In this document: positions 1 through 17,559 of the stretch, one piece after another | How the letters are laid out: every line of letters begins with the position of its first letter | Numbering within the stretch: the stretch's first letter is position 1 | Translations under genes and position numbers: made by a program | Notes under the pieces: generated by a model | The model's input: the letters and a program-made list of their open reading frames with translations, nothing else | Told to the model about the DNA's origin: nothing | Database searches by the model: none | Assembly: GCA_015232555.1 (NCBI GenBank) | Contig: JADFZJ010000034.1 | Coordinates: 1-44,651, forward strand | From: Desulfamplus sp. | Lineage (GTDB): Bacteria; Desulfobacterota; Desulfobacteria; Desulfobacterales; Desulfobacteraceae | Direction: 5' to 3' | DNA length: 44,651 nucleotides

Positions 1-1610
1 TAGAACCTCAAGAGTTTTACGTAATGCTGCGTCAAATCTATCTATTAATGGGGCTAAATTTGTGTCATCTGCATAACCATCTGATTTGAGTGTTGCCTCA
101 AGCTCTGCTCCTATTGTCTGCAAATCAATTGCCCCAATTGTGCCAGCCACACCCTTTACTGTGTGGGCAAGCCTGACAGCAAGTTCTTGATCTTGCTGTT
201 TAATGGCATCTTGAATCTTAATTGTGGTATCTTGATTATCTCGATGAAATTTGGTCAGAAGACTCAGATAAAGTTTTTTATTACCGCTAACTCTTGAGAG
301 TCCAAGTTCGGTGTTTATACCTTCAATTGAAGACAGATTTAATTCAATCTCAGAAGAGGCTGAACCCACACCGTTGTTTGCCTTTGAATCTATCTTGCTT
401 AGATATTCATCAGGCAAAGATCGTTTAGCAGGTTTTATCCATTTGACTAACGCTTTGAAAATCTCTGACGGCTCTATGGGTTTGGTTACGTAGTCGTTCA
501 TGCCGATATTTAAGACATCTTCACGAACTCCGCTCATTGCATCTGCTGTCATGGCAATAATTGGAATCTCATCGCTTATCCCCACCTCTTTTTCATAACT
601 CCGTATCTCTTTGGTTGATGTTCGTCCGTCCATCACAGGCATCTGCAAATCCATTAAAATAACATCATAATATTTAGCTGGTGAAACCTTAATCATATCC
701 AATCCAATTTGACCGTTACCTGCAATATCAATATAAAATCCTTCATCGCCTAAGACTTCTACTGCTAACTGCTGATTAATTTCGTTATCTTCAACTAAAA
801 GCAGACGGGAACCTCGAATATAGTCAAATCCATTGGGAAGCTCGTCTTTGACTATATTTTTTATCTTATCAGCACTGAAATTCTCATCTTTTGCAATGTT
901 TTGACCCATTCCAAACTCAGCAGTAAACCAGAATGTACTGCCTTTACTCTCTTCACTCTCAATCCCAATTTCACCGCCCATCATCTCACAAAGTTTTTTG
1001 CTGATTGTAAGACCTAAACCTGTCCCTCCATATTTACGGGTAGTTGATGTATCTGCCTGCTGAAACGATTGAAAAAGTTTTCCCTGCTGCTCTTTGGTCA
1101 AACCAATTCCTGTATCTGTAACTGCAAAACGTATAAATGCTGAATGTTTGTTGTGCTCAATAAGGTTGATAGATAGTGTGATTTCACCCTTTTCAGTAAA
1201 TTTAACAGCATTATTGACAAGATTGAGAAGAATTTGACCCAATCTCAATGGATCTCCCTTTAACGCTGTTGGCACATCAGAATCTATTGCAAAGAGCAAC
1301 TCAAGACCCTTTTCATGTGCTTTTAGAATAACTAAGCTGCCAAGATTATTCAACACATCGTTTAGATCAAAATCAACTGACTCCATGTTTAGTTTACCAG
1401 CCTCAATCTTGGAAAAATCGAGAATATCGTTGATGATTCCTAAAAGATTTTGAGCAGAGAGATAGACCTTGTTTATGTAGTCCCTCTGCTTTGGATTAAG
1501 CTCAGTTTTTAGGGCTAAGTTGCTAAGTCCAATAATGGCATTCATCGGGGTTCTTATTTCGTGGCTCATGTTAGACAAAAAATCGCTTTTTGCTCGATTA
1601 GCAGTTTCAG
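1..1610 (-). repeat. Duplicated kinase segment, copy A
   Basis: This stretch, covering HisKA to HPT of the partial hybrid kinase, matches 6380-8415 at the nucleotide level. Aligning the first 100 bases by eye gives 6 mismatches. Copy B has an additional receiver domain of roughly 0.4 kb (about 7240-7690) that is absent here. Identity falls away upstream of the HisKA box, where the sensor domains differ completely. Confidence 0.85.
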
Positions 1611-2847
1611 CTAACTCTTTAGCTTTTATTATCTCCTGCTCTGCCTTTTTACGCATTGTAATATCGGCGACTACTCCCTGCAAACCAGCAATAACTCCTT
1701 TTTTGAAATAGCGACTGCTTGAAGTCCTTATCCAAATAAGAGATCCTGATTTATGGAATGAACGGATTTCAGAGGGTTCGGTTTTCTGTCCCAAAAGCAT
1801 TTTTTGAAATTTATCTAAAATCATGGGCAAATCTTCATGATAAATAAATTCAGACAGATGTTTTCCGATAATCTCATCAGGCTTAAATCCTATAATATTT
1901 TCAATTATAGGAGAGATATAAATAATAAATCCATTGGTATCTGTCAGAAACAGAGCTTCACTTAGGTTTTCGACAAGACTTCTGAATTTTTCCTCGTTTT
2001 CTTTTAAAGCATTTTGAGCATGTTCTCGCTCAGTAATATCATGAATAATTGAAAAAAGAAGGCTTTGCCCGTGAAATGCAATCGGTGTTGAATGGACTTC
2101 CACACTTCTTATCTCTCCGTTAGCCAAGCGGTGCTTGAAGTTAAAATAATTTCGTTCCTCTACTCTGGCTTTTAACATCTCATTTTTTATCTCTTCCTTG
2201 CTTAACTCATTGAGTTCAAATACTGTAAGTCTATTGAACTCTTCAGATGTGTAACCGTAATATTTTTGAGCAGCCCGATTCGCCCTGACGATTACTCCGT
2301 TTTCAGAATTAACCAGAAACATTACCGCACTATGGTATTCAAACATGCTGCGAAAAAGCTCTTCTTTCTCCTCTAATGCTTCTGCTGTTTTTCTGTGTTC
2401 GGTGATTTCCTGCTCTAACTTCTCGTTTCGGGCTGTAACCATCTGTTGCAGATACGATATCGAAAGATGAGTCTCTACTCTTGCCAGAACCTCTTCAGCG
2501 TGAAATGGTTTACTTATATAATCAACACCTCCAACGGAAAAGGCTTTTATTTTCATTGTCATATCGTTAAGAGCACTGAGAAATATGACAGGTATTTTAG
2601 ATGTTTTCTCATCTGCCTTCAACTGTCTGCACACTTCGTATCCGTCCATTTCAGGCATCATTATATCCAAAAGGATTAAATCAGGCTGAGAATATAGCAC
2701 AGTTGGCATTACCATGTTACCTTTACGGAGCATACGAACTACATGACCCTGCTCTTTCAATATTCCAGCAATCAGACGCAAATTCTCTGGTTTGTCATCT
2801 ACAATTAAAATATTTGATGTTAATTTTTCGTTACTATGGTCAATCAT
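1..2847 (-). CDS. Hybrid sensor histidine kinase, REC-PAS-PAS-HisKA-HATPase-REC-HPT (C-terminus cut by window edge)
   Basis: The frame is open from an ATG at 2847 to base 1, giving 949 residues with no stop, so the gene continues beyond the left edge. The start has a good AAGGA ribosome site and overlaps the end of the upstream kinase gene by 8 bases, which suggests translational coupling. Visible parts are a receiver (phospho-Asp about D61 in [11 protein letters not shown]), two PAS domains (about 160-275 and 285-400), a HisKA box [10 protein letters not shown] with His about 429, a HATPase with DTGIGL and GTGLGL boxes, a second receiver (VEDNEINQQ), and an HPT domain with the AHTVKG histidine. 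There are no membrane segments, so it is probably cytoplasmic. It likely takes phosphoryl groups from a partner kinase through the first receiver and relays them onward. The C-terminal half nearly duplicates the gene at 6092-9031. Confidence 0.9.
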
Positions 2848-4921
2848 TGTTTGAATCCTTTTCTACCAAAAGCTCTAAAATTTTTTCATAATTAAAATTT
2901 TCAGCCATTGGCATCAAAGCCTCTGCAAGTAAGGCATCAAAAGATCGGATATGTTCAATTATCATCTCTAAGGTTGTCATATCACATATTAAACTTGCCT
3001 GTTTAAGTTCAGATTTCAACTGTTTGGGCAAAAATGAGATAGATTTTTCAATCCGTTTTGAATCAACTTTTTGTAAAATAGTTTGTGTTTCCTCTGGAGT
3101 AATATTTAGGGTTAAATCAGGAATTGTTACCTGAACTTCAAATTTAAAAATAGAGCCTTTTTTAATTTCACTTTTAACTGTAATATCTCCGCCCATCAGT
3201 TGAACGAATTTACGACTAATAGATAACCCAAGACCTGTACCTTGTTGAGATCGCCTTCCACTTTCTGTCTGAACAAATGCCTCAAATAGAATATTTAGCT
3301 CATCAGGGGAAATTCCTACCCCAGTGTCTTCCACTTCACAAATAATTAATTGATCTTGTGCTTTTTGATTTTTCATACTGTTTCGCCTTTTGGCTTTAAC
3401 TCTTACAAAAATTTCGCCTTTTTCTGTAAATTTTAGTGCATTTCCAATAAGATTTATAAAAATCTGCCGCAGCTTTGTCTCATCTGCAATTACATAACGT
3501 GGAATATCTTCTGCCACTTCAAAAATGAGATTAAGGTTATTCTGTTGAGCTTTAAGCCCAAACATATCATGCAGATCATTGAAAAATATGTATAGATCAA
3601 ACTCTTTATTATTAAGCACTGTTTGCCCTGACTCGATCTTGGACATATCTAAAATGTCGTTGATTAACGTGAGTAAATGTTCACCACTTTGGTTTATGAT
3701 ACGCAGGTTTTCTTGCTGTTCTGGTGTAAGATTATCTCCTCTTCTCAAAAAGTGTGAAAATCCTATGACAGCATTTAGAGGAGTTCGCAGTTCATGACTC
3801 ATTGTGGAGAGAAAATTTGATTTGGCACGATTTGCAGCTTCTGAAGCCTCTTTGGCAATAATCAACTCCATTGTACGCTCTTTGACTAAATCTTCAAGAT
3901 GATCTTGATACTCTTTTAATTTATCCCTCTCTTTATTTACAGCATCAACCAGCAACAGAATGGAATTGATAAATTCTTGAACCAACAGATAATATTGGTT
4001 GTTATCCTCAAACTGAAACGGTGTATTTCCAGTATCTTCTAAGGATTTATTTAATGCAGGTGCAAGATGCTCCAATCTATAAGATAGGTTCGCTCCGGGC
4101 TGTAAGGTAAGAAAAGATAAGTTTTGAATCAGCATGGTCAGGTTGTTGTGTTCTTTTTGCAAAATTGTAAACTCTTTTTGTATTCTGCTTGTATGAAGGT
4201 TGAAAATCCAAAATATAATCAATAAAATAGAGGCTGTTCCCAACACAATTTTTACTTCATCTGTGATGTCTTGCGTGATCAACATACTTGCTTGAGACAT
4301 ATCAGCAATCTTATCGGTAAAAGAGAGGTATATATTCCCAGAGCTTATCGATATAGGTGAATATCTAAATACATTGCCGATCTGTCGAGGATCATGGGAA
4401 AACCATATTATTCCATCTTCTGCTATAAATAGCTGAGTCTTGCCTACAATAGGAAAAGGGAAAAAATCTTTTGGAACAAATGAATTTACAGCAAAATAAT
4501 CTATATAACGTTTAACAAAATGAACACGCTGAACTCCATCAACCATATCTGGAAAAAAGACAACTGCAATCTCTTTTGGCTGCATAAGATAAATTTTGCC
4601 AAAAAAACCGCTGGGACTCAAAGTCATGCCTTGAAGAGTAGAGGTAGGGGCTTTTTTGATTGTGCCATCAATGCCAATAATTAGATTGTGAACAACAGGA
4701 ATTGAGAGGCTGCTGTTTTTAGAATCAATCATAGTTTCAGTCTGTTTTAGACGATTCAAAAAAAGCGTTTTCCACAACTGTGCAGAGTCTCTTAGATGTA
4801 GAAAGTTTATCAATATAAACAGAACTAAAAAGACGATATTTGCTAATAAAAATATGCCCCAGTTCCATTTCAAGACCAAGCTGATCTTTGTATGTAACAA
4901 TCGAATACTTTTATTGTCCAT
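2840..4921 (-). CDS. Membrane sensor histidine kinase with periplasmic sensor domain
   Basis: The product has 693 residues. Transmembrane segments at about 20-42 and 224-243 flank a periplasmic region of about 180 residues that I cannot assign to a named fold with certainty (Cache-like by length). A cytoplasmic linker with coiled coil (about 325-365) precedes the HisKA box [14 protein letters not shown] with His376. The N-box has N490/N494, with G-boxes DTGVGI (532-537) and GTGLGL (561-566). There is no receiver domain, so it must pass phosphate to a separate receiver. The obvious candidate is the N-terminal receiver of the overlapping downstream hybrid kinase. The gene follows a periplasmic binding protein by 38 bases, so ligand-loaded binding protein could be the signal; that is inference. 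Confidence 0.88.
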
Positions 4922-4959: not shown

Positions 4960-6048
4960 TCATTTAAATTCTACTGTCTCCTTTTTGTCCATTTTACCGT
5001 TCATTGTTTCAAGAATTGTAATTCTTTTGCCAGTAGAATCTCCATATTGATCCATAGCTATACTCCCATAAATCGTGTCATAGATTCGAGGAGTTTCAAA
5101 ATAGGCTTTTATGGCTTCACGGGAGTAACCTACCTCTCTTATTGCGTCATACAGGATATGTGATACAGATACAGCATAATGAGAGCCATTTGTCGCTTTC
5201 ATTTTATATTTTTGCTCAAAATCAGCAATTTCAGCTTTGTAGTCTTCTCCGTATAAATCAGAACCTAATGAGAAGAATAATACGCCGTCTAATAAAGGAC
5301 CAGAATAGAGCGAAAGAATTTCAACAGTTCCCCATGAAGATGAGCCAATTAAAATATTTGGCTTCTTTTCCCTGACAGCTTTAATTACTTGAATCACATC
5401 TTTAGCCGCAAGAATGGTAAATATTCCATCAGGATCAGCATTAAATATACTCTGATAGGTATCCTCATTTGGAGCAAATGGTATCTGAACCAACTCCCCT
5501 GTAAAATTTTCTGAAATAACTTTGATATATGGATCAACGTATGCTCTATTTTCTATGGAGGTTACCAGAACAAGTCTTTTGATCCCAATATTTTGATAAT
5601 ACATTCCAACAGCTTTTGCCTGTGAAGAGTTGGTTGCACATAGTCTAAAAAAAGCATCTTTTTTGTTACTTAAAACAGCAGAGGACGGTGTAAGTCCTAA
5701 AGTGGGAATCCCAGTTCTGAAAGATTCCTCAGCAAGCCAAACTCCATCTTTACTCAAAACTCCGCCAATAATAGCTGACACACCCATCTCGTCCAATTTT
5801 TTGTAGGTTTGTTTAAACTCCTCCTCTTTTGAAGGTGGATTTTCAATTATAAATTTAACGGGTTTTATTCCGATTTTAGAGTGTGTGTCTTGATAGTAAC
5901 GCATAAAAAGATTCTCTTCATTGCCAAGAGACATCTCAATCGGCAAAATCACACCAATAAGTATTGGTTTTAAAAAATATTTTAAACATCCAAAAGCTAT
6001 TAACATAACAAGTAATATAACACTAAAAACAACCATACGTTTATTCAT
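4960..6048 (-). CDS. Periplasmic branched-chain amino acid-type substrate-binding protein (Peripla_BP_6-like), probable sensor partner
   Basis: The product has 362 residues, with an N-terminal hydrophobic segment at about 5-22 acting as a signal peptide or anchor. A poor lipobox-like AFGC ends near residue 21, so lipidation is uncertain. The body reads as a type I periplasmic binding fold: GVILPIEMSLG at the start, GVSAIIGGVLS, IPTLGLTPSSA and the usual second-lobe strands. LivK/AmiC-type proteins normally sit beside ABC permease genes. None is present here; the neighbours are a hybrid kinase 43 bases upstream and a membrane kinase 38 bases downstream. The context suggests a dedicated ligand sensor feeding the adjacent kinase, in the manner of TorT/TorS, rather than a transport component. 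The ligand cannot be read from sequence. Confidence 0.8.
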   Translation of the reverse strand: MNKRMVVFSVILLVMLIAFGCLKYFLKPILIGVILPIEMSLGNEENLFMRYYQDTHSKIGIKPVKFIIENPPSKEEEFKQTYKKLDEMGVSAIIGGVLSKDGVWLAEESFRTGIPTLGLTPSSAVLSNKKDAFFRLCATNSSQAKAVGMYYQNIGIKRLVLVTSIENRAYVDPYIKVISENFTGELVQIPFAPNEDTYQSIFNADPDGIFTILAAKDVIQVIKAVREKKPNILIGSSSWGTVEILSLYSGPLLDGVLFFSLGSDLYGEDYKAEIADFEQKYKMKATNGSHYAVSVSHILYDAIREVGYSREAIKAYFETPRIYDTIYGSIAMDQYGDSTGKRITILETMNGKMDKKETVEFK

Positions 6049-6091: not shown

Positions 6092-9031
6092 TCATAGAGT
6101 AATTACTATAGACTCCACAATCTCCAAAGCCTCTTTAAACTTATATTTTCCAATCAATCGATCAAGCTCTTGCAATTTTGACTTAATCTCATCAGACCAA
6201 TTTAATAAGTTTATCTCCTCCATAATCTCCTTGCATGGCTTTGGTTTTTTCTTCTGTAAAGCAGGTTCAAGTTTTTTCATAAATTCAGCAAATTGAGCAG
6301 CGTCTCCCTGTTTTGCCACATCTTTAGACTGTCCAGCCCCTTGAGTTGAATTTGCAGATATAGCAGATATAACAGGAGCTAAAACCTCAAGAGTTTTGTG
6401 TAATGCTGCGTCAAATCTCTCTATTAATGGGGCTAAATTTGAGTCATCTGCATAACCATCTGATTTGAGTGCTGCCTCAAGCTCTGCTCCGATTGACTGT
6501 AAATCAGATGCCCCAATTGTGCCAGATACCCCCTTTACTGTGTGGGCAAGCCTGACAGCCAGCTCCTGCTCCTGTTTTTCAACCGCATCTTTAATCTTTT
6601 GGACAGTATCATGATTATCACGATAGAATTTTGTCAGCAGGTTCAGATAAAGTTTTTTATTGCCGCTGACTCTTGAGAGTCCAAGTTCTGTGTTTATCCC
6701 TTCAAGTGAAGAGAGATTTAATTCAGGCTCAGAAGAGGATAAACCTAAGCCATTATTTATTTTTCCATTTATCCTGCTTAGATATTCATCAGGCAGAGGA
6801 CGTTTAGCTGGTTTTATCCATTTGACTAACGCCTTGAATACATCTGACGGCTCTATGGGCTTGGTTACATAGTCGTTCATACCAATACTCAAGACCTCTT
6901 CCTTAACCCCCGCCATTGCATCTGCTGTCATGGCTATAATTGGAGTCTCATCAACTATGCCAAACTCTTTTTCATAACTCCGTATCTCTTTGGTTGATGT
7001 TCGCCCGTCCATCACTGGCATCATCAAATCCATCAGCACAACATCATATTTATTTTGTTCAATTTGGGTATTTTCAACAGAAGCTCTATATTTTTCAAAA
7101 CCAATTTTGCCGTTATCTGCAACATCAATATAAAAGCCTTCGTCACCTAACAGTTCAATTGCTAACTGCTGATTAATCTCATTATCTTCCACAAGAAGCA
7201 GACGTGCACCTCTAATATTGTTAAATCCACTTGGCATTTCCGATTTATTAATACTTCTATCAACTTTTTTATCTACTGCCTTGCCAAATGCGTTCATTAT
7301 AGAATCAAATAAAAGAGACTGCGTTACTGGTTTGATCAAAAATCCATCAAGACTTATCTGTTTCGCCTGACTTATTAGGTCTTCATTGCCATGTCCTGTA
7401 ACCATAACAATCTTGGGAATTTTTGTAAGGTCTGCATCTTGCTGTATCTGTCTTGCAGTCTCAATTCCGTTAATACCCTGGGGCATCTCCCAATCCATAA
7501 ATACAAGACCGTAAGGCTGCCAAGTGTGCTCTTTGATCATCTCAATAGCTATTTTACCTGATGAAGCTGTATCAGCATAAAAACCCAATTGTTGTAAATA
7601 ACTTTTCATAACTTGGCGTGAAACTGCGTTATCATCAACCACAAGCATTCTCATCTCTTTAATATCTTCTGGAAGAACAAGAAGACGTTTTTCAGCTTTA
7701 TCATGTCGTCCAAACTTGGCAGTAAACCAGAATGTGCTTCCCTGACCCGCTATACTGTCAATTCCAATTTCTCCGCCCATCATCTCGGAAAGTTTCTTAC
7801 TGATTGTAAGCCCTAAACCTGTTCCGCCATATTTGCGGGTAGTTGAGGCGTCTGCCTGCTGGAATGACTGAAATAATTTCCCCCGCTGCTCTTGAGTTAA
7901 ACCAATTCCTGTATCCTGAACCGCAAAACGGATAAAAGCTGACTCTTTATCGCAATGGATTGCTTTAATAGATACCGTGATTTCCCCTTTTTCAGTGAAT
8001 TTAACAGCATTATTGGCAAGGTTTATTAATATTTGACCAAGACGTAGAGGGTCGCCTTTTAATGCTGTTGGCACATCAGGGTCTATTTGAAATATTAACT
8101 CTAACCCTTTTTCTTGTGCTTTAAGAATTACTAAGCTGCCAAGGTTGTTCAAAATATCGCTTAAATCAAACTCAACAGACTCCATGTTGAGCTTGCCAGC
8201 CTCAATTTTCGAGAAATCAAGAATGTCGTTAATTATTCCCAAAAGGTTTTGAGCTGATATATAAACTTTATTTATGTAATCTCTTTGTTTTGGGTTAAGC
8301 TCTGTTTTAAGGGCAAGATTGCTAAGTCCAATAATTGCGTTCATTGGAGTTCGTATTTCGTGGCTCATGTTGGCAAGAAAATCGCTTTTTGCACGAGTTG
8401 CAGCTTCTGCATCTTTTTTGGACTCTTCAAGATCGTCCATGATATTTAACATTGCCCGCCGTGCTTTGGAGAGTTCTTCAACCTGTGTTTTAAGAGCTTC
8501 TGTTGCATATTCTGCTTTCTCTTTTGCAATGCGTGCCTCTTCTGTAAATATCTTTAACTCCTCATTTTTTTTAAGAAGATCACTTACAAGCTCCTCTCTG
8601 GAAGGCTTGAATATTATCTGTTTATGTTGTTCTATAACATTAGAAGCTACAAAGGTGTTTGGATCTGAAAAAGTAATAAATCCATAGGCTTTTGTAGAGC
8701 TTTCAATATCATTTTTGATTTGATATATATCAAAAAAACGGGATACAGCTGGATTTAATTCAACCTTTTGACCATACTCAAATATAAATTCAAGACCATT
8801 GCCATCACTCTTGGAATAACTCTTTACATCATTGTGATTCTTCATGCTAATAGTAACATTAACGCCAGAGGCAATATGACAGCCGACCCGTGCAAGTTCT
8901 GAAAAAACTGTTGTTAATCTTGCTGAATGAATATTGTCGTATCCTAATGCTTCGGATAAACTGTAAACTCTTGATAATGTTTTCTTTAACGTATCAGTGT
9001 TGTTTATCGTTAATCTGCCAAGTTCAATCAT
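6092..9031 (-). CDS. Hybrid histidine kinase with N-terminal degenerate RsbT-like domain, HisKA-HATPase-REC-REC-HPT
   Basis: I chose the ATG at 9031 (979 residues) because GAGGTG lies six bases before it. An in-frame ATG at 9061 has AGGT almost touching it and would add 10 residues. Residues about 1-140 resemble an anti-sigma or RsbT-type ATPase fold: TTVFSELAR at about 41-48 matches the N-box region of RsbT, but the asparagine after SELAR is replaced and no G1/G2 boxes follow. A coiled coil (about 145-215) leads to HisKA ([10 protein letters not shown], His224), HATPase (DTGIGL, GTGLGL), receiver 1 (Asp513), receiver 2 (Asp668) and HPT (His830 in AHTVKG). There is no transmembrane segment. 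It starts 42 bases after the rsbX-like gene, so it is a good candidate for the output or target of the partner-switching module. Confidence 0.85.
6380..8415 (-). repeat. Duplicated kinase segment, copy B
   Basis: Nucleotide-level counterpart of 1-1610. Both copies share the same blocks from the HisKA box to HPT, with scattered and mostly third-position differences. This copy carries an extra internal receiver (about 7240-7690). The arrangement fits a gene duplication followed by insertion or loss of one receiver, or ongoing gene conversion of the shared halves. Confidence 0.85.
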
Positions 9032-9073
9032 ATTAGACACCTCAAAACGATCATATTCCATACCTTAAAAAAA

Positions 9074-9691
9074 TCATACCCCATACCTCAAAACAATACA
9101 TGATGAATCATCATTGCCTTTGCCAAAAAGATTTATCATTTCGTTTGCAATCTTTTTAGCTGGTCTCTTTAAAAGCTCAGGATAATCTTCAAAATTTATA
9201 TGCTCACGCACACCATCAGAGGTCAAAATAAGGGTATCTCCATAGCAAAGCTTAAATTGTCTCTCTTTTGGAGAGCGGATCATATAGCCTACAATTCCCT
9301 CTTGCGGCATTAGCAGAAAATTTTTGTAACCCATAACTCTTGTGTTGATATTGCCTATACCCGCATAACATAGCCCGCCATCATTAAGATTAATGAGGCA
9401 TAACGCTGCAACCGCCCCTCTTGTCCCTTTAAGATGCTCATGCAAACCATTCATCATTTCAATTAGCCCCATGCGATAATGTTCTGATAGATATTTTTCT
9501 GCAACAAGAGCAACATTGTATGCCTCTTTGCCATGCCCAAGAACATCTAAAAGCACTAAGAAACATTGATTATCATACACCACAACAAAGCCAGTATCTC
9601 CGCACTCATCTTCCCAACCTGTAAGAGAGCGTTTTGCAATATGGTAGTCAATGTTTGCAGTTTCAAACCCTTTATTAATCTGATCAATCAA
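9074..9691 (-). CDS. rsbX: RsbX-like PP2C (SpoIIE-type) serine/threonine phosphatase
   Basis: The product has 205 residues, close to the length of RsbX in Bacillus. The start codon is TTG at 9691, with GGGGA nine bases upstream and only 3 bases after the rsbT stop; no ATG fits the domain start. Metal-binding signatures are GDTG near residues 31-34, LLDVLGHG (Asp49, Gly52), TSDG (Asp159) and DDSS (194-197). In stressosome systems this enzyme dephosphorylates RsbS and RsbR and so resets the module after RsbT kinase activity. Its position directly behind rsbS and rsbT supports that role. It has no sensor domain of its own, unlike RsbU or RsbP, which argues for the feedback-phosphatase role. Confidence 0.85.
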   Translation of the reverse strand: MIDQINKGFETANIDYHIAKRSLTGWEDECGDTGFVVVYDNQCFLVLLDVLGHGKEAYNVALVAEKYLSEHYRMGLIEMMNGLHEHLKGTRGAVAALCLINLNDGGLCYAGIGNINTRVMGYKNFLLMPQEGIVGYMIRSPKERQFKLCYGDTLILTSDGVREHINFEDYPELLKRPAKKIANEMINLFGKGNDDSSCIVLRYGV

Positions 9692-9694
9692 TTT

Positions 9695-10120
9695 TTATTG
9701 TCCCCATCTCTTTGCAATGACAACAGTTCCTTTTTCAGGGGAAGATTGAATAAAGAACTCGTCCATTATTCTTTTAACGCTTGGCAATCCAAGCCCAAGA
9801 CTGTTGCCAGTGCTAAAATGCTCCTGCATTGCTTTATCTATATCTGAAATACCAGCACCATTATCTTTGGCAGTAACTTCAATGCCTTGTATATCGCCTG
9901 TATTACTCATTTTGCTAACAAGCCTTAATATAACAATACCTTTTGAGGCATAACGAATTATGTTTGTTGCAAGTTCAGAGACAGCGGTTGCTATTAAAAA
10001 CTGCTGGGTCTCATCAAAACCTATATCGGCTGCCATCTGCCTTGCTGTGTAGATAACTTGGGCATTATCTGAAGGTTCACAAACATCAATAAAAATTTCT
10101 TCGATAACTCTATTTATCAT
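9695..10120 (-). CDS. rsbT: RsbT-like serine kinase / switch protein
   Basis: The product has 141 residues from the ATG at 10120. A longer frame runs to 10225, but its first 35 residues are encoded by a repeated palindrome (10182-10209) and lack family similarity. RsbT is normally about 133 residues, so the shorter start is preferred. ATPase motifs are intact: AVSELATNIIRYA (N-box Asn53), KDNGAGISD (G1 at 85-93) and GNSLGLGLPSVKR (G2 at 105-117). In known modules RsbT phosphorylates RsbS and RsbR in the stressosome and, once released, activates a downstream partner. No RsbU gene is present, so the partner is unknown; the kinase at 6092-9031 is the nearest candidate. It follows rsbS by about 136 bases and precedes rsbX by 3. 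Confidence 0.87.
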   Translation of the reverse strand: MINRVIEEIFIDVCEPSDNAQVIYTARQMAADIGFDETQQFLIATAVSELATNIIRYASKGIVILRLVSKMSNTGDIQGIEVTAKDNGAGISDIDKAMQEHFSTGNSLGLGLPSVKRIMDEFFIQSSPEKGTVVIAKRWGQ

Positions 10121-10181
10121 CACTATGTCTTCTTTAGGTTTATACGTAATCGGGCATAAAATGAGCTTTTTATATTTTAGA

Positions 10182-10209
10182 GTAGAGATGCACGGTCGTG
10201 CGTCTCTAC
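10182..10209. repeat. Dispersed 28-bp palindrome, copy 1
   Basis: The arms GTAGAGATGCACG and CGTGCGTCTCTAC form an almost perfect hairpin (one G-T type mismatch). It lies between rsbS and the preferred rsbT start. A related copy sits at 43191-43218. It resembles the small REP-like palindromes that recur in intergenic DNA of many bacteria. In the mRNA it would form a stable hairpin, which could separate expression of rsbS from rsbT; that is inference. Confidence 0.75.
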
Positions 10210-10256
10210 AATTTATAAACCTCAATTAATGACCTTTCAGAGTATAGTAGGTAGGT

Positions 10257-10727
10257 CTAATCTGTTAAACTACTTTTAATGTTTGGCGGGTCTTGCTCAT
10301 CAACCTCTTTTGTCAATGTATTATCAAAAATAGTATCAGCATCATCTATATTAATGGATTTTTGATACTCCAATAGCTCAAATCCATCTTCCATAGTTAC
10401 AGCGGTGAATATATCGTCAAATTTAACATCAAGATCGATAAGGGCAGAGGCAACTCCGGGTTGAAAACCAACAAACACAACATAAGCCCCAAGCATTGAA
10501 ACCATCTGTGCAGACTCTTTGAGCATCGCAAAGGTGAAAGAGTCAAGAAACTTTACAGCAGAGACATCAATAAGAACCTCTTTTGAATGAGTTGCTTTGA
10601 CCTTTTCCAAGATAGCTTTTTGAAGAAGCGTTATGTAATCATCATGCACTTCACTGGTTACAGGAACAATAAGGCAACCGTTTATACTCTGAATATTAAT
10701 CATTGATAGAATAGAACGTTTACTCAT
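10257..10727 (-). CDS. rsbS: RsbS-like STAS-domain stressosome scaffold protein
   Basis: The product has 156 residues. The STAS core resembles RsbS: LIDVSAVKFLDSF carries the phosphorylatable serine (Ser63, in the same DSF context as Ser59 of Bacillus RsbS), followed by MLGAYVVFVGFQPGVASALIDL. The C-terminus is about 35 residues longer than usual, acidic and low in hydrophobics. The start at 10727 has GGAG about ten bases upstream; an internal ATG eight codons later has none. RsbS forms the stressosome core and holds RsbT until phosphorylated. The gene lies 66 bases behind the RsbR-like gene, the classic R-S-T order. Confidence 0.87.
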   Translation of the reverse strand: MSKRSILSMINIQSINGCLIVPVTSEVHDDYITLLQKAILEKVKATHSKEVLIDVSAVKFLDSFTFAMLKESAQMVSMLGAYVVFVGFQPGVASALIDLDVKFDDIFTAVTMEDGFELLEYQKSINIDDADTIFDNTLTKEVDEQDPPNIKSSLTD

Positions 10728-10793
10728 TTTTCTCAGCTCCAGAAAACTCTTTGAAAAATGAGCATATTAACCAGAAAATGTCTATTTTGCATC

Positions 10794-11615
10794 TTATTTT
10801 TTCCTGACTACTTCAAATTTTAATAGTGCAAATGCGTCAGAAAGAGCATCTTCAAGTGTGGAATTGGTATTTATCTCCCCAAGATCAATACCTAACTGAA
10901 CAATAGCTTGAGCCACTGCTGGTGATATACCTGAGATTATGCAGCGGCAGCCCATGAGCTTTGTTGCCTTAGCAATTTTAATCAAATGGTTTGCAACAGC
11001 AGTGTCAACAGCAGCTACACCCTGTATATCAAGGATAATCACCTTAGATGAATTTTTTGTAATCTGTTTTAACATTGTATCCATCATCTGCTGGGCACGC
11101 ATTGAATCAATCACACCAACAACTGGAAGAACAACTATTCTGTCCCAAAGTTTTATTGCAGGGGTTGATATTTCCATAATGATACGGCTCTGTTCTTTCA
11201 GTTTCTGCTCTTGCCTGACTCTATCTGTAATATCAAGAATATACTCTAAACCCCCAATAATATTGTCATTATCGTCTTTGAGCGGGGCGGCTGTATATTC
11301 TATATATACGGTTCTATCGTTTATCCTTATCTCATTACGCACTGCTTTTGATGCGTCTTCCCCTTCTATAACTTTTTTCATTCTGCATTCAGGCGTCTGG
11401 CAATGTGCTGAATTGAAGATAGAGTAACAGTAACTGCCCTTTATCTCCTCAAAGTTTTTTCCAATAAAACTACACCCAGCTTGATTCATAAAAATAATTT
11501 TCAAATCACGGTCAACTGCCATAACAGGAGTTGGAATCTGTCGTAATATCTGCAAAGCCAAATTGTCATCAATTTGATTATTTATCTGATTATTTATTCT
11601 GTCTTTTTCATTCAT
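10794..11615 (-). CDS. RsbR-like PAS-STAS stressosome sensor
   Basis: The product has 273 residues with a PAS domain at about 20-133 and STAS at about 150-265. ILDIQGVAAVDTAVANH holds Thr205, in the place of RsbRA Thr171. The second regulatory threonine position, in the AVAQAIV segment, appears to be alanine. RsbR paralogues in Bacillus carry a non-haem globin fold; here a PAS fold takes that place. The PAS core has a cysteine cluster (Cys48, Cys63, Cys72, Cys77) in a CYxIFN...CxxPECRM pattern, which could bind metal or sense redox or ligand state. It follows the large PAS membrane protein by 56 bases and precedes rsbS by 66. Confidence 0.85.
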   Translation of the reverse strand: MNEKDRINNQINNQIDDNLALQILRQIPTPVMAVDRDLKIIFMNQAGCSFIGKNFEEIKGSYCYSIFNSAHCQTPECRMKKVIEGEDASKAVRNEIRINDRTVYIEYTAAPLKDDNDNIIGGLEYILDITDRVRQEQKLKEQSRIIMEISTPAIKLWDRIVVLPVVGVIDSMRAQQMMDTMLKQITKNSSKVIILDIQGVAAVDTAVANHLIKIAKATKLMGCRCIISGISPAVAQAIVQLGIDLGEINTNSTLEDALSDAFALLKFEVVRKK

Positions 11616-11671
11616 TCAGTAAATTCCTTATTTTTTTATTATGGAAGTAAAAACACGGTGGCTGTGCATAT

Positions 11672-14662
11672 TTACTCAACAATCTTATATTTTTTCCCTT
11701 TTCCCAACTCTTCTCTTAACTGATTGATCTCCTCTTTTAGATTAATCATACGCTCTTCTCGGTTTATGGTTAGGCGGCTAAACTTTTCTAAATCTTCCAT
11801 CTGAGACCTCATTTTTTGCTCATATTCTCTTCGCTCAGTTATATCTTCTAAGGTTACAATAACTTCAGTTGGAGTCTTTCCAGCATTTACAGGGTTGAAT
11901 TTCATGTGCAGAGGCACAGTTTTCCCTCCTGTTGCAGAAGTATAATCAGCCTCATATTCTGCTGTTTCACCTCCAATTGCCCTTCTTAGAGCCTCTTTCA
12001 TTCCCTCATCTCTCCCCTGTGTCAATGAGTTAAATCCAATTAGTTTTTCGCGAGTTGATCCCATCAAATCGACAAATTTTTCATTGCAATTGATAATTGT
12101 TCCTTCACCGTTTATGCGAATCATGCCAAGAGGTGAACTTTCAAAAATTGTTTGGTGCTGTTTTGCACTCTCCAATATCTCATCTTGAGTCTTTTTTCGC
12201 TCTGTTATGTCTAAATATGAAGAGAGAACAAGATTAACTGAATTATCTTGATTTCTCAAACATGAGATTGAGATATTTGTATAGACAATAGTGCCATCTT
12301 TACGGATAAACCGTTTATCCATGCTATAATTATCAATCTCCCCTGCAAGCATAAGATCAAAATTTTTTATATCTTCTTCAAGGTCGTCAGGATGTGTAAG
12401 ATCAGCCCATGTCGTTTGACGCAGCTCTTCAAGTGTGTAGCCTAACATATCTTGAAGACGTTTATTTGCCTCAATCCACCCTTTTTGCGGGTGAGTAACA
12501 GCCATTCCAATCTGTCCATACTCAAAATATCCACGAAAACGCTTTTCGCTCTCTTTTATAGCTTCTTCAGCTTTCTTCCGCTCTGTTATATCTCGCACAG
12601 AGCCTACTGCAAACCACTCTCCTTGAATCTGAAAAGGGGAGAGAGATACTTCAACAGGAAAACTCTTCCGAGCACGGTTCACTGCTGTTATTTGAGTTGT
12701 TACCCCCAAAACAGCCCCTTCTCCAGTCTCAGCAAATTTTTTGAGTCCTGCTCTAATACGCTCTATAAATTCAGAGGGTGCTGCCATATCGTGAAAATCT
12801 TTGTCCATTGCCTCTTCTTCTGTATAACCAAAGAGCTTTTCTGCTGCTTGATTCCAGAACTTGACAGAGCCTTGACTGTCAAGCATCACAAGAGCATCAG
12901 CCATAGCCTGCCCCATAGCCTTTATTTTACGTTCAACATGTTCTCTCTCTTTTATTGCTTTTCCAAGACGGCGATTCCAAAGCAGAACAAAGATTATTAT
13001 TCCTAAAAGAACAGCACAAATTGGTCCAACAATCCACCAGTTGATTCCTTTCTGATATTTAATAGCCAACCATCTGGTTTTTATTGCTGTTTTTTCTTGA
13101 TCGCCCATGCTTGCCAATGCTTTATCTAAGGCAGATGCAAGCAAATCCCAATCTTTTCTGATACCAAATGCCAAATCGTGGTTATATGGGGTGGAAGCTG
13201 CTATCCGCAAGTTTACAAGCCCAAGATTCTCAATAGCATAAGCAACAGCCCCAAGGTTATCAATAAAGACATCAAACTTTCCATCAGAGAGTTCAACAAG
13301 GGCGGTGCCAATATCAGGAGAAGCGACTAAATATAAAGAAGGATACTCACGTTTTAGATTTGATTCAATTATCTGACCTTTAATTACACCAATCTTTAAT
13401 CCGTGAAGGTCTTCTAATCCGCCAGCAAGTTGATCTTTTCGAGAAACTATAACTGATGGAAAAGTTATGTATGGCTTGGTGAAAGTCATAAATTTTTCTC
13501 GTGCTGATGATAGTGTTACTTTAGGAATAAGGTCTATTTCACCGACTTTCACCTTTTCCATAGCCTCTGTCCATTTAATATTTTTTTGTGGAATAACATC
13601 AAGACCAATTCTCTTTGTAGCCTCAATTATAAAATCAGCACTAATACCTGAATAGACACCATTTTTATCAATATACTCAAAAGGCGGGTGGGCGATGTCA
13701 ACTCCTAAACGTATTTTTTTATCAGGAATATTATCAATAAAATTTTGCTCCTCTTTTGTTAAAACAACATGAGCAGATTTATCATCAATGGCTTGGGAGA
13801 GCATTTTTTTTCCATCTTTATCGTCTCTTTTATTATCTCCTGCCAGCCATTTTTCATGAAGTTTTCGTATCTCATCTTCAGAGATGGCTGCCATTGCTTT
13901 TTCAAGAATAGATGCTAAAATTTTTATCTCTTTTCTAACTGCAATATGAAGTGGAATGGGCTTGCTCTCTTCCAATCCAAGTTCTCCGCCAACTTTAAGG
14001 TTTGTTATCTGGATTTGTCTTGTTATGTAGTCAACAACAGGCATCAAATCAAATAAAGCATCTGCTTTACCCACAGAGACAGCACGAATAGAGGCAGAGG
14101 TATCAGGAACTTCTATTATCTCTATTTGCGGGTGCTTTTTAAGAACTTCTTGAAGAAAAAAACCTTTTGGAACAGCAAATTTTTTACCATAAAGGTCTTT
14201 TATTGAAGCGACAGTAGGAAAATCTGTCCGAGTGTATAACATCTGGATCATTGAGAGATAGGAAGAGGTATAAGCAAGAAATAGCTCTCGTTCAGGGGAT
14301 TTTGCAATATTGAGCATTATATCAAGCTCCCCTTTTTTAGTCATTTCAAGAAACTTATCCCATGAGGGTCCGTTGATAAATTTGATCTCAAGACCTGTTG
14401 TTTGTGCAAGAAGGGTCATGTAATCAATGGAAAAACCTTTTGGAATACCTTTTTCATTGAAATTAAACGGTGCCCAATCAGTTTCATTGTGAACTCTAAC
14501 AACTTCACAGCTTACTAAAAACGCCTTCTCCTCTTCAGTAAGCTGTGAAATAAAATCAGTAGTAGAAACTGCGGTAACAACCAAAGGCAGAGATAAAATA
14601 GCTACAATAACGATTAAGATAATATTTTTGTATCCAATAGTTGCTATATTTTTTAAGTTCAT
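11672..14662 (-). CDS. Membrane ligand sensor: two SBP_bac_3 domains, transmembrane helix, three PAS domains, coiled coil, no kinase
   Basis: The product has 996 residues, with a signal peptide or anchor at about 12-32. Two tandem periplasmic amino-acid-binding folds follow: about 45-275 (DWAPFNF, GFSIDY) and 300-543 (HPPFEYID, GISADF). A transmembrane helix lies at about 545-567. Three PAS domains follow (about 580-695, 700-820, 825-945), each ending in the typical DITERKK-type linker. A charged coiled coil (about 946-985) closes the protein. There is no HisKA, HATPase, GGDEF, EAL or receiver. The product therefore resembles BvgS-type sensors without the catalytic half. It probably acts through protein contact, and the adjacent PAS-STAS protein is a candidate partner. 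GGAGTGAAG precedes the ATG. Confidence 0.85.
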   Translation of the reverse strand: MNLKNIATIGYKNIILIVIVAILSLPLVVTAVSTTDFISQLTEEEKAFLVSCEVVRVHNETDWAPFNFNEKGIPKGFSIDYMTLLAQTTGLEIKFINGPSWDKFLEMTKKGELDIMLNIAKSPERELFLAYTSSYLSMIQMLYTRTDFPTVASIKDLYGKKFAVPKGFFLQEVLKKHPQIEIIEVPDTSASIRAVSVGKADALFDLMPVVDYITRQIQITNLKVGGELGLEESKPIPLHIAVRKEIKILASILEKAMAAISEDEIRKLHEKWLAGDNKRDDKDGKKMLSQAIDDKSAHVVLTKEEQNFIDNIPDKKIRLGVDIAHPPFEYIDKNGVYSGISADFIIEATKRIGLDVIPQKNIKWTEAMEKVKVGEIDLIPKVTLSSAREKFMTFTKPYITFPSVIVSRKDQLAGGLEDLHGLKIGVIKGQIIESNLKREYPSLYLVASPDIGTALVELSDGKFDVFIDNLGAVAYAIENLGLVNLRIAASTPYNHDLAFGIRKDWDLLASALDKALASMGDQEKTAIKTRWLAIKYQKGINWWIVGPICAVLLGIIIFVLLWNRRLGKAIKEREHVERKIKAMGQAMADALVMLDSQGSVKFWNQAAEKLFGYTEEEAMDKDFHDMAAPSEFIERIRAGLKKFAETGEGAVLGVTTQITAVNRARKSFPVEVSLSPFQIQGEWFAVGSVRDITERKKAEEAIKESEKRFRGYFEYGQIGMAVTHPQKGWIEANKRLQDMLGYTLEELRQTTWADLTHPDDLEEDIKNFDLMLAGEIDNYSMDKRFIRKDGTIVYTNISISCLRNQDNSVNLVLSSYLDITERKKTQDEILESAKQHQTIFESSPLGMIRINGEGTIINCNEKFVDLMGSTREKLIGFNSLTQGRDEGMKEALRRAIGGETAEYEADYTSATGGKTVPLHMKFNPVNAGKTPTEVIVTLEDITERREYEQKMRSQMEDLEKFSRLTINREERMINLKEEINQLREELGKGKKYKIVE

Positions 14663-14754
14663 TGAAAATTCTTCACTCCTAACTAACGCTCAATTTTGAT
14701 GAATATATTCTGCTCTTTGCCTGCATGTTTGTCCGTTTCGAAGCCTCACTTACA

Positions 14755-15135
14755 TTAAATGTTTTGCAACAGCATAGATTCTATTTTTGCCAATACATCA
14801 CTAAATTTTGCTGCTTTTGATATCATGTGCTGTTTGCCAACCATTCCATTTTTCGTGTCAGAAGGCATGACAAGCGAAGAGCAAAACAAAATTGGAATAT
14901 CTTTAGTCTCTTCAGTGTCCATTAATGAACGAGCTACATCACCGCCGTCCATACCGGGCATATCAATATCACACACAATCAGGTGCGGCATCTCTGTCTT
15001 GGCAAGCTCTAAGGCAGATTTTCCTTTGTTGGTAAAAACAACAATAAATTTTCCAGTTTTATCAAGTTTTGTTTTAAGCAGAGTAGTAACTGATGGATCA
15101 TCATCAACAAGCATTATCTTCTTTAAGTTTTCCAT
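14755..15135 (-). CDS. Single-domain response regulator (CheY-like receiver)
   Basis: The product has 126 residues and consists of one receiver domain. Acidic pocket D11-D13, phospho-acceptor D56 in VCDIDMPGMDG, Ser86/Ser87 as switch position and Lys107 in the final loop are all present. There is no output domain. It lies 36 bases after the hybrid kinase and is probably a phosphate shuttle or sink between the kinases and HPT domains of this cluster; that is inference from position. Confidence 0.88.
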   Translation of the reverse strand: MENLKKIMLVDDDPSVTTLLKTKLDKTGKFIVVFTNKGKSALELAKTEMPHLIVCDIDMPGMDGGDVARSLMDTEETKDIPILFCSSLVMPSDTKNGMVGKQHMISKAAKFSDVLAKIESMLLQNI

Positions 15136-15171
15136 AATTGAAATTTCTCCTTTTTATAAACGTATAAATTT

Positions 15172-17202
15172 CTAATTCATATTAACGTATCTTATCTCTA
15201 TATCGCTTAAAGAGGATCCCAGCAGATTTAAGCTGTTTTTAATTGCTTCAAAATCGTGCTGTTTTGCTGCCTCTTCAATTACAGAGCCAATTGAACCCTG
15301 ATCTTTAAAACCATACATATTAAATCCGCCTTTAAGTTTGTGCCCCAATTTTTGAATAATTTTATAGCCCTTCTCTGTTAAAAAAGGCGATTCAGATTTA
15401 CTCATCACTTCTTTTATCTGTTCAATTTCAGATTGTTTATCGCTAATAAAAGAGGGAATCAAATCTTCAAGATCAGCATCAATCTCAACTTGGGTTTTAG
15501 TGTGCTGTTTGTCGTTTTCATAATGATAATAATTTTGATTGTCATTATGATTTCCAAAGAATTCCAAAATGGATTCGCGTAGCTGTCTGCTGTTTACTGG
15601 TTTTGACAGATACGCATCAAAACCTATATCAAGGCAGTTTTGGCAGGTATTTGGATCATCATGTCCTGACAGGGCAATGATAATCGCATTTTCCCCTCTG
15701 TTTGATTGGTCACTCTCCCATTTTCGTATTAAGCTGACCGTCTCTATGCCGTCCATTACAGGCATCTCCATATCCATAAATATAAGATCAAAATTTTTCT
15801 CTTTAAATTTATTGATAGCAGCTTGCCCATTATCAGCAAGCTCTATATAAAATTCAGGGTAATTTAGATATTTTTTTAAAATAAGCTGATTATGTTCATC
15901 ATCATCAACAACCATGATCCTAATTTGAGGAAGTTGGGATAAAGAGGAGTCAATCCTACTTTTCATAGAGTTTATGAGCTTGGCAGTTGGTGAGTCTATT
16001 GATGATGAAGTTTTTGATAAAATTGATGAATCTGAAATTTTTGTGATATCTATCTCTGCATATTTAAGAGTTACTGTAATGGTTGTTCCATTAATTTCGC
16101 TGGTTGACATTGAAATCTCTCCGCCAAGTGTTTGTGCCATAAGTTTGGCTGAATATGTACCAAGACCCGTGCCTCCTTTTTTTTCAGCAGTTGCGTATTT
16201 TTCAAAAAAATTATCTCTGATAGATGTGGGAACTACACCTTCATTGTGTATGGCTATCTTTACTTGTTCGTTTTCAGATATTTTGTGGGATAGCTCAATC
16301 GTAACTGTTGTACTGTTTGGCGATGCTTCAACAGCGTTCTTAATCAGATTGGCAAACATGGAGTAGCAGAGAAGCTCCTCACCTAATACTCCAAAAATAT
16401 CATAATCAGAAGCTGCCCTAATATTGTCAGCCAGATCATCAATGAGCAGATTAAATTTTATTGCCTTTGAATCAGTTAGACTACGAAGAGCAAAAATGAT
16501 CTTTTTTATGACACTCAAAATATTTAGAGGAACTGGATTTAATTTATAGCTGCCTTTCTCCATCTTAAACATATCAAGTGAGAGGTTTATCATGTTAAGC
16601 ATTATGTATCCTGATTGTTCAATTATCTCAAGCAGTTCAACCTGATCTGATGCAAGACGGCTGCTATCTTGGAGCAAAACTCGAGGTATGGAGATAATGC
16701 TGTTAAGCGGAGTCTTGAGATCATGGCGGCTTATGCGATCTATCTCCTCTCTTAAATGGATATTCTCTTGCAAAATATGATTCTGACGCTCTAAATTTTC
16801 ACGAGCCTGTTTTAACTCCAAATGATTTTCAACCCGTGCTTTTACAATTGGTGGGCTGATCGGTTTTGTAACATAATCGACTGCTCCAAGTTTTAGCCCC
16901 TTTGTCTCATCTTCAACTTGACTTAACGCTGTTATGAAAATAATTGGAATATCTTTGGTTTTTTCATCTGCTTTGAGTCGCCTGCAAACCTCATATCCAT
17001 CAATACCCGGCATCATTATGTCAAGCAGAATCAAATCTGGTGGGTTTTCATGGACATTTTCAATTGCACTCTCTCCGTCCATAGTGACACTAACCTCATA
17101 ATCATTACTAAGAGTATCAACTAAAATGTCTATATTTGACTCTGTATCATCAACAATCAGAATATTTTTTTCTTTACTTTTTTCGACATATCGTTTTTCC
17201 AT
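15172..17202 (-). CDS. Hybrid histidine kinase, REC-HisKA-HATPase-REC-HPT
   Basis: The ATG at 17202 (676 residues) is chosen because GGAG lies six bases before it. The open frame extends to a TTG at 17247 without a ribosome site. Domains are receiver 1 (D61 in LLDIMMPGIDG, Lys113), a coiled coil (about 128-155), HisKA box SRHDLKTPLNS with His160, HATPase (N-box NLIKNAVEAS, GTGLGT; G1 has the NEGVVP form common in this subtype), receiver 2 (D477 in FMDMEMPVMDG) and HPT (His621 in LGHKLKGG). There are no membrane helices. It is the first gene of the minus-strand signalling cluster. Its three phospho-sites suggest a complete internal relay fed through receiver 1. Confidence 0.88.
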   Translation of the reverse strand: MEKRYVEKSKEKNILIVDDTESNIDILVDTLSNDYEVSVTMDGESAIENVHENPPDLILLDIMMPGIDGYEVCRRLKADEKTKDIPIIFITALSQVEDETKGLKLGAVDYVTKPISPPIVKARVENHLELKQARENLERQNHILQENIHLREEIDRISRHDLKTPLNSIISIPRVLLQDSSRLASDQVELLEIIEQSGYIMLNMINLSLDMFKMEKGSYKLNPVPLNILSVIKKIIFALRSLTDSKAIKFNLLIDDLADNIRAASDYDIFGVLGEELLCYSMFANLIKNAVEASPNSTTVTIELSHKISENEQVKIAIHNEGVVPTSIRDNFFEKYATAEKKGGTGLGTYSAKLMAQTLGGEISMSTSEINGTTITVTLKYAEIDITKISDSSILSKTSSSIDSPTAKLINSMKSRIDSSLSQLPQIRIMVVDDDEHNQLILKKYLNYPEFYIELADNGQAAINKFKEKNFDLIFMDMEMPVMDGIETVSLIRKWESDQSNRGENAIIIALSGHDDPNTCQNCLDIGFDAYLSKPVNSRQLRESILEFFGNHNDNQNYYHYENDKQHTKTQVEIDADLEDLIPSFISDKQSEIEQIKEVMSKSESPFLTEKGYKIIQKLGHKLKGGFNMYGFKDQGSIGSVIEEAAKQHDFEAIKNSLNLLGSSLSDIEIRYVNMN

Positions 17203-17559
17203 ATTATACTCCACAAGATAATCAATAAAATGAAGGGGCAGGGGCAAATTATTTAAACTCTATCACCATTTGCAATTGCACCAGCTATATTCTGAAAGGA
17301 AAGGTTGGCATCCTTCATTTCTCGGTTGACACTTTGAGAAAGCAAGATGTTTTTTTGTGTGCAGAAGAATGTTTTTTTAAAAAAAATACTGTGAGCAGCC
17401 ACCCCAATTGGTATACTTTGGCGATTGCGAAAAAACCAGAGATACCGGAGGGGATATGCAGCTCACAGATTATAATAATTTACCAGAATATGTTTTTACA
17501 GGAAAAAAGTTTATTTATGATACAATATCAGAACTGAAGATAGTACTGTCCATTTAAAT
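17203..17559. other. Intergenic region between lysC and the signalling cluster
   Basis: There is no convincing gene in these 357 bases. The region contains the long hairpin at 17378-17466. Between it and the cluster start lies AT-rich DNA that should hold the promoter of the 17-kb signalling cluster on the minus strand, but I cannot pick out a convincing -35/-10 pair. A short minus-strand frame (17253-17345) lacks a ribosome site. Confidence 0.5.
17378..17466 (-). terminator. Long multi-stem hairpin followed by T-run: large terminator or small structured RNA
   Basis: GTGAGC (17391-17396) pairs with GCTCAC (17461-17466). Inside it, CCCC pairs with GGGG, and GGTAT-A-CTTTGG pairs with CCAGAG-ATACC with one bulge and one G-U pair. 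Read on the minus strand the structure is followed directly by AGTATTTTTTTT, as in an intrinsic terminator, and it lies downstream of lysC. The plus strand has no T-run. At 76 bases with four stacked helices and internal loops it is larger than a usual terminator, so a separate small RNA is possible. I do not recognise the family. Confidence 0.5.

Follow-up and report, generated by a model that had tools for sequence, protein, structure and literature searches.

How does a stressosome pass its signal to a histidine kinase when the output protein lacks RsbU_N, the known receiver of RsbT? The coupling of stressosomes without RsbU_N effectors to their output is stated as an open point in the accessible part of PMC9237108, according to which most proteins downstream of globin-type RSTX modules (rsbR, rsbS, rsbT and rsbX), VvD1 included, do not carry this domain. 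RSTX modules adjoining a histidine kinase or two-component output are already on record for Vibrio, as far as the available portions of PMC9237108 and PMC10014275 go. Here, we describe a module of this type in Desulfamplus sp., located in a window—the whole stretch of DNA analysed, 44,651 nucleotides—that constitutes contig C34 of a 3.8-Mb draft genome.

On the minus strand of the window, a co-directional series of eleven signalling genes extends from 17247 to the contig end at 1 (Table 1). The first eight encode, in order, a REC-HK-REC kinase, a REC protein, a ligand sensor, RsbR, RsbS, RsbT, RsbX and a hybrid kinase, and these are followed by genes for a periplasmic-binding protein, a histidine kinase and, truncated where the contig stops, a REC-PAS-PAS hybrid kinase. 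The original prediction, made from the sequence alone, had placed co-directional rsbR, rsbS, rsbT and rsbX genes between hybrid kinases and a ligand sensor in an operon with no sigma factor. Open reading frames and Pfam matches recovered all the genes it named, and none of the Pfam matches obtained for the 11 operon products was to a sigma-factor family. The operon extent it gave holds for the genes within 6092-17202, but the run is longer, with three more co-directional genes (4960-6048, 2840-4921 and 1-2847). Similarly, the intergenic gaps of 3-92 bases stand for the other genes in 6092-17202 but not for rsbS-rsbT, where the gap is 136 bases instead of 31 if RsbT begins at the start kept in relatives, approximately 10120. 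The start of the hybrid kinase P0001 at 9031 was correctly placed, with MIELG kept in relatives and GAGG lying 8 bases upstream.

Table 1. Features of the signalling gene run in the window.
Feature	Position	Strand	Basis
P0008, REC-HisKA-HATPase-REC-(HPT-like) hybrid kinase, head of the run	15172..17205, ORF to 17247	-	Pfam
P0007, stand-alone receiver (REC)	14755..15135	-	Pfam
P0006, ligand sensor with 2x SBP_bac_3 and 3x PAS, without kinase domain	11672..14662	-	Pfam
P0005, RsbR-like, PAS_4-STAS, 'VDT' (T205)	10794..11615	-	Pfam and motif
P0004, RsbS-like STAS, 'LDSF' (S63)	10257..10727	-	Pfam and motif
P0003, RsbT switch kinase, HATPase_c_2, N-box and G1 motifs intact	9695..10120, ORF to 10225	-	
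P0002, RsbX-like SpoIIE/PP2C phosphatase, TTG start uncertain	9074..9691	-	Pfam
P0001, hybrid kinase HKN-helix-HisKA-HATPase-REC-REC-HPT	6092..9031	-	Pfam and conserved start
HKN, RsbT-derived pseudokinase domain apparently without ATP lid, proposed stressosome receiver	8555..9031	-	
Long predicted helix linking HKN to the kinase core	8399..8599	-	
HisKA and HATPase_c core of P0001	7712..8392	-	
REC-REC-HPT relay of P0001	6416..7645	-	
P0009, Peripla_BP_6 binding protein, co-directional	4960..6048	-	
P0010, histidine kinase without receiver, co-directional	2840..4921	-	
REC-PAS-PAS-HK-REC-HPT kinase, cut by contig end, without HKN	1..2847	-	

Promoter-like and terminator-like sites were not commoner than in shuffled sequences, scans of the window for tRNA and Rfam families returned no match, and a PADLOC scan of six proteins gave one weak SduA match only, inside the receiver region of P0001. 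We also observed that positions 1-669 are 92.6% identical to G000:C8:2660-3331, on another contig of the same genome, the two segments belonging to paralogous hybrid kinases, and that an exact 51-base match to G000:C8 lies at the contig end of the window. The contig break probably falls within this shared paralogous-kinase repeat.

Within the RSTX module, Pfam assigned STAS domains to P0005 and P0004, which contain the motifs VDT and LDSF, respectively, with T205 of RsbR and S63 of RsbS being what we take to be the phospho-acceptor sites. The RsbT protein P0003 has intact GHKL motifs (SELATN and DNGAGI), and the N-box Glu and Asn, the G1 Asp and both G1 Gly residues are kept in 79/79 RsbT rows. 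An RsbX-like single-domain PP2C (P0002, by its SpoIIE match) follows rsbT, a position kept in relatives. RsbU, RsbV, RsbW and sigma-B are absent from the run's 11 products—i.e., this is not a Bacillus sigB-type operon. Other STAS and HATPase_c_2 proteins encoded in the same genome (G000:C9, C18, C42, C32 and C55) are candidate further members of partner-switching systems.

What, then, lies at the N-terminus of the kinase behind rsbX? Pfam detected no RsbU_N on P0001, and its first ~160 residues from the Met at 9031—a domain for which we coin the name HKN—matched no Pfam family even at E 10 (residues 1-160), ruling out RsbU_N as the identity of HKN. A profile of ten HKN sequences matched RsbT in profile-profile comparison at 88% (E 3e-6), and with 34 HKN rows against 79 RsbT rows the match rose to 98.0% (E 2.1e-13), aligning HKN columns 6-112 to RsbT columns 9-134. 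The control profiles scored 0.1% (RsbX), 0.3% (RsbS) and 1.1% (histidine-kinase ATPase domains) against HKN, the last value leading us to reject HKN as a duplicate of the ATPase domain that the histidine kinases themselves possess. Nineteen RsbT columns between the G1 motif and an 'MDEF'-like segment have no partner in HKN, and we read them as the ATP lid, which HKN would have lost. The N-box Glu is kept in 27/34 HKN rows and the N-box Asn, four residues after it, in at most two of the 34 (L025 keeps it). In the reverse search, the RsbT profile matched only seven of the 31 HKN N-termini retrieved below at E <0.01; the similarity of HKN to RsbT is therefore weak at the level of single sequences.

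An AlphaFold2 model of HKN, built from a 40-row alignment, had a pLDDT of 89.2 and a pTM of 0.67, with the predicted order b-a-a-b-b-(a)-b-b followed by a 66-residue helix. The 15 best Foldseek matches of this model in the PDB were SpoIIAB, RsbW, UsfX and the RsbW part of Rv1364c; just one of them fell below E 0.001, and the query-normalised TM-scores were 0.35-0.42, with the long helix unmatched. By sequence, HKN plus the helix matched PDB entries below E 0.05 within the helix only. HKN thus resembles the SpoIIAB/RsbW/UsfX anti-sigma kinases in its predicted fold, and differs from them in lacking the lid and the N-box Asn and in being fused to a signalling output. Taken together, the homology to RsbT, the GHKL-like predicted fold and the lost catalytic elements identify HKN as an RsbT-like GHKL pseudokinase domain. 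A literature search, largely of open-access papers, found no description of an RsbT-like domain on a protein downstream of a stressosome, and such an adaptor domain on a stressosome output protein is apparently undescribed.

The original prediction had proposed a search of other genomes for conservation of the gene order, with absent linkage in relatives speaking against it; instead, the linkage turned out to be present in all class-level relatives with HKN and to recur in many phyla. The first 169 residues of P0001 matched 11 of 291 class-level genomes, its own included, where HKN has one match. RsbR, RsbS, RsbT and RsbX lie directly upstream of the HKN kinase in 10/10 class-level relatives, and the linkage is therefore more than chance. 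In 394 genomes of the Psychromonas order, six matched HKN; besides L061, RsbT and RsbX are directly upstream in 5/5 loci, in two of them within one ORF. The HKN profile further matched 13 of 395 phylum-level genomes, several via RsbT-sized genes that we read as RsbT. A plasmid search with the Psychromonas N-terminus returned 760 records, 18 from Vibrio, none covering 80% of the query.

Two loci call for comment. L020, listed at first as an exception without RsbS, RsbT and RsbX, reflects an ORF-picking artefact: the genes are there, with overlapping ends, masked by an opposite-strand ORF without a Pfam family. The HKN kinase of L019 (= L028) is broken by an inversion, with ~70 kinase residues forward and the rest inverted in this same-genus MAG (L019/L028:6318-9863)—either a true inversion or an assembly fault.

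For the distribution of HKN, we searched the contigs of named genomes with an RsbT alignment, which gave at least 570 loci, and analysed the best 80; the distribution counts describe those 80 only. In 71/80 loci, we could read a next gene of >150 aa behind rsbX or, if no RsbX was recognised, behind rsbT, and nine loci were left out; at L091, an 87-aa automatic next gene was replaced by a 1035-aa HKN ORF. Two loci are duplicates (L028 repeats L019, and L038 repeats L021). In these 71 readable RSTX loci, drawn from the best 80 of at least 570, the next gene carried HKN in 31 cases and no HKN in 40. At E<1e-3, the ten-sequence HKN profile picked out 81/1725 plus-strand ORFs—the 31 next genes plus 50/82 RsbT genes, and no others—and 29/31 HKN next genes lie outside the training genus and the duplicates. 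Pfam found RsbU_N on 37/40 non-HKN next genes and on at most one of 32 HKN proteins (the 31 plus P0001; RsbU_N is absent among the 25 families listed of 31). With this near-exclusive distribution, HKN and RsbU_N look like alternative receivers. The outputs of the 32 HKN proteins are varied: HATPase_c on 22, HisKA on 21, SpoIIE-type PP2C on ten and guanylate-cyclase on one. The HKN rows carry 12 NCBI phylum labels, many of them from MAGs, the Myxococcota label of some 'Deltaproteobacteria' being doubtful. The cyclase case, L041:8992-10044, comes from an alphaproteobacterial MAG; here, the protein encoded behind RSTX joins HKN to the catalytic domain of a guanylate/adenylate cyclase.

The RsbT proteins divide along the same line. 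When 71 RsbT rows are arranged in a tree, two changes suffice for the adaptor label, as compared with a mean of 23.3 in 500 shuffles, none of which was as low, and 39/40 non-HKN rows lie behind one branch (support 100/98). The sole non-HKN exception, L090, is a very long branch, and was excluded from the column ranking. In this ranking, RsbT column 23 discriminated most by adaptor, and four of the top eight columns fell at 20-26, in the first helix according to the alignment. Column 23 corresponds to R19 in the 133-residue Bacilli-type RsbT of L083, and the accessible part of PMC12143880 implicates R19, R23 and N24 of RsbT in RsbU binding. Arg occupies the R19 column in 38/40 non-HKN RsbTs versus 0/32 HKN-type RsbTs; it is also absent in 11 further HKN-type RsbTs and kept in three from intermediate loci. 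The R23 column has Arg in 37/40 non-HKN and still in 18/32 HKN-type RsbTs, and at the N24 column residues vary in either group. The tree has the adaptor label switching just twice, so that the R19 association represents one or two independent events; we rejected it as proof of contact because these changes are too few, and regard the pattern as consistent with an altered RsbT interface.

Several loci appear to hold intermediates between RsbT and HKN. Among further genomes from the same phylum, the kinase after RsbX has a longer RsbT-like N-terminus. That of L145 keeps an apparently intact N-box, G1 and G2, with Pfam HATPase_c_2 over residues 17-125; the L144 kinase has decayed motifs and is hit by the RsbT profile over 9-130 (E 3e-17), and the L146 kinase matches this profile at 5e-9. 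For L143, L148 and L149, the HKN profile alone picks out the N-terminus, the best match of the RsbT profile being the kinase's own ATPase domain. These graded intermediates fit an origin of HKN by RsbT duplication, fusion and decay, the direction of which we infer from sequence comparison. Related arrangements were also seen. RsbX is fused behind an RsbT-like domain, beside a separate RsbT gene, at L144:2355-3368, L141:8693-9847 and L150:1147-2148 (Pfam), and our own profiles indicated RsbX-RsbT-like fusions in further loci, some fusion loci having three RsbT-like copies. Two tandem RsbT genes, possibly an early duplication stage, occur in L142:7624-8429 and L079.

A globin-type locus allows a comparison with the Vibrio systems. 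In L133, RSTX includes a Protoglobin-STAS RsbR and is accompanied by a kinase of PAS-HK-REC-REC-HPT architecture and a regulator of the REC-HD-GYP type. Two published primers, when sought in L133, did not occur there, and we therefore treat the locus as globin-type and not as that of V. vulnificus. The HKN profile matched this kinase at residues 113-150 only, and the remainder is in register at 11-21% identity. For its AlphaFold2 model (pLDDT 88.8), Foldseek listed 14 matches at E <= 0.001, each of them an RsbW, SpoIIAB or UsfX chain; the model is not independent evidence because its alignment included other HKN sequences. By alignment and model, the L133 kinase appears to have a divergent HKN. 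The V. vulnificus rsbRSTX-VvD1-VvD2 locus (PMC9237108 and PMC10014275) shares with the Desulfamplus run a hybrid kinase directly after RSTX, a phosphorelay and the absence of sigB, and may share a c-di-GMP output. However, the available portions of these papers describe a Vibrio RsbR that senses by globin instead of PAS and report no RsbT receiver on VvD1, whereas P0001 carries HKN; the run described here also adds a kinase-less ligand sensor and further kinases. In the B. subtilis sigB operon, the RsbR/S/T core likewise faces an effector with an N-terminal RsbT receiver and a helical linker, but that receiver, RsbU_N, is a four-helix bundle according to the part of PMC12143880 available, in contrast to the RsbT-like predicted fold of HKN, and the present run contains no RsbU, RsbV, RsbW or sigB. 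The RsbU_N histidine kinases and the Moorella GGDEF protein MtG, covered in that same part of PMC12143880, offer a further parallel, with a modular receiver on varied outputs behind a stressosome; the receiver is a different one, and RsbU_N does not figure among the families listed for the HKN proteins.

The original prediction also held that ligand binding, partner switching and phosphotransfer form one circuit. This idea is supported in part. A specific tie between the module and the kinase at 6092-9031 is borne out by the recurring linkage and the RsbT-derived N-terminus; the ligand-sensor leg is weaker. P0006 has no kinase domain. Its C-terminal tail (11675-11812) has one match in its own genome, and six other loci (L018, L019, L021, L022, L031 and L035) have a tail of this type on the gene that immediately precedes rsbR; that P0006 feeds RsbR is our guess. 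As to the output, P0001 is identical to the kinase at 1-2847 at 60% over 394 residues and 77% over 293 residues. As these cores are alike and HKN has a single match in the genome, HKN resembles a front end attached to a relay core that the two kinases have in common. In relatives, 9/9 regulators encoded with HKN modules are REC-HD-GYP proteins, the regulators having been chosen for size; elsewhere, the HKN kinase has a small REC or a REC-HK as its neighbour, or lacks a regulator beside it. The run in the window has no REC-HD-GYP gene, and G000:C8:8629-9711, beside further kinases, is an 87% identical orthologue of the REC-HD-GYP gene of a sister species. A V4R protein is encoded at G000:C8:125-709 beside paralogous kinases, and V4R-like ends were seen, by eye only, on sensors in the HKN loci L030, L138 and L139.

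The explanation we put forward, with an even chance of being right in our estimation, is that the RSTX stressosome controls the adjacent hybrid kinase via HKN, a dead, lid-less RsbT descendant, through RsbT-HKN pairing. At rest, the RsbR/RsbS core would retain RsbT until a signal, which might reach the RsbR PAS domain from P0006, makes RsbT phosphorylate the core and leave. Free RsbT would then pair with HKN, standing in for RsbU_N, and the long helix would switch the kinase and its REC-REC-HPT relay—with REC-HD-GYP the presumed end point in the relatives examined—while RsbX would reset the RsbR/RsbS core. Speaking for this explanation are features computed here, i.e., the genes and their conserved linkage, the HKN-RsbT profile match, the SpoIIAB/RsbW/UsfX-like predicted fold and the near-exclusive distribution of HKN and RsbU_N, together with the intermediates, the split of the RsbT tree by adaptor and the R19 pattern. 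We count against it that the tree shows two changes only, the R23 and N24 pattern, and the two-hybrid assay of VvRsbT with VvD1 in the accessible part of Heinz et al. (PMC9237108), which gave no positive interaction; the same assay likewise failed to detect RsbT with either RsbS or RsbR when these were taken singly.

The main rival is direct docking, whereby HKN would bind the RsbR/RsbS core in RsbT's place and the kinase would be released or reoriented once RsbT phosphorylates the core. We consider this unlikely on balance, even though the core is the partner of RsbT, from which HKN derives, and the negative RsbT-VvD1 result agrees with it. The RsbT-like domain of L145 is what a first docking of this kind would lead one to expect; this RsbT-kinase fusion fits direct docking equally well, and hence counts against the RsbT-HKN explanation. 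Docking is harder to reconcile with the loss in HKN of the N-box Asn and of the ATP lid region, which contacts STAS partners in SpoIIAB-type kinases, or with the finding that the RsbT column changing most with adaptor type is an RsbU-contact residue. Heinz et al. suggested, in the part of PMC9237108 available, that RsbT transiently phosphorylates downstream proteins without RsbU_N; HKN would then be a mere recognition surface or serve another role. The catalytic motifs preserved throughout the RsbT rows agree with this idea, which leaves unexplained both the RsbT-derived N-terminus and the presence of the same domain on PP2C and cyclase outputs, and which we deem improbable. Finally, HKN might sense a nucleotide, a ligand or the dimer state, with the stressosome being an operon neighbour directed at another cellular target, for which the other STAS and HATPase_c_2 proteins in the genome could be partners. 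This reading is very improbable given RsbT and RsbX beside HKN in every class-level and order-level locus counted above and HKN on the next gene in 31 RsbT-retrieved loci with three kinds of output domain.

Generalizing the RsbT-HKN pairing, HKN may constitute a second receiver class—a dead RsbT copy that would partner live RsbT and sits on kinases, PP2C phosphatases or cyclases across roughly a dozen phyla, globin-type systems included—a proposal that we hold tentatively, at slightly less than even chances. The novelty lies in the adaptor domain, RSTX with two-component output being already known from the accessible parts of PMC9237108 and PMC10014275. An RsbT-derived adaptor is a concrete, testable answer to coupling without RsbU_N, and would explain why kinases, phosphatases and a cyclase all sit behind RSTX. 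If the proposal is true, HKN is the point at which Ser/Thr partner switching is turned into an output by phosphorelay or second messenger, and the coupling of globin-type (Vibrio-like) stressosomes would be explained. It would also show how a Ser/Thr switch kinase, through duplication and loss of its activity, may become a connector to His-Asp phosphotransfer.
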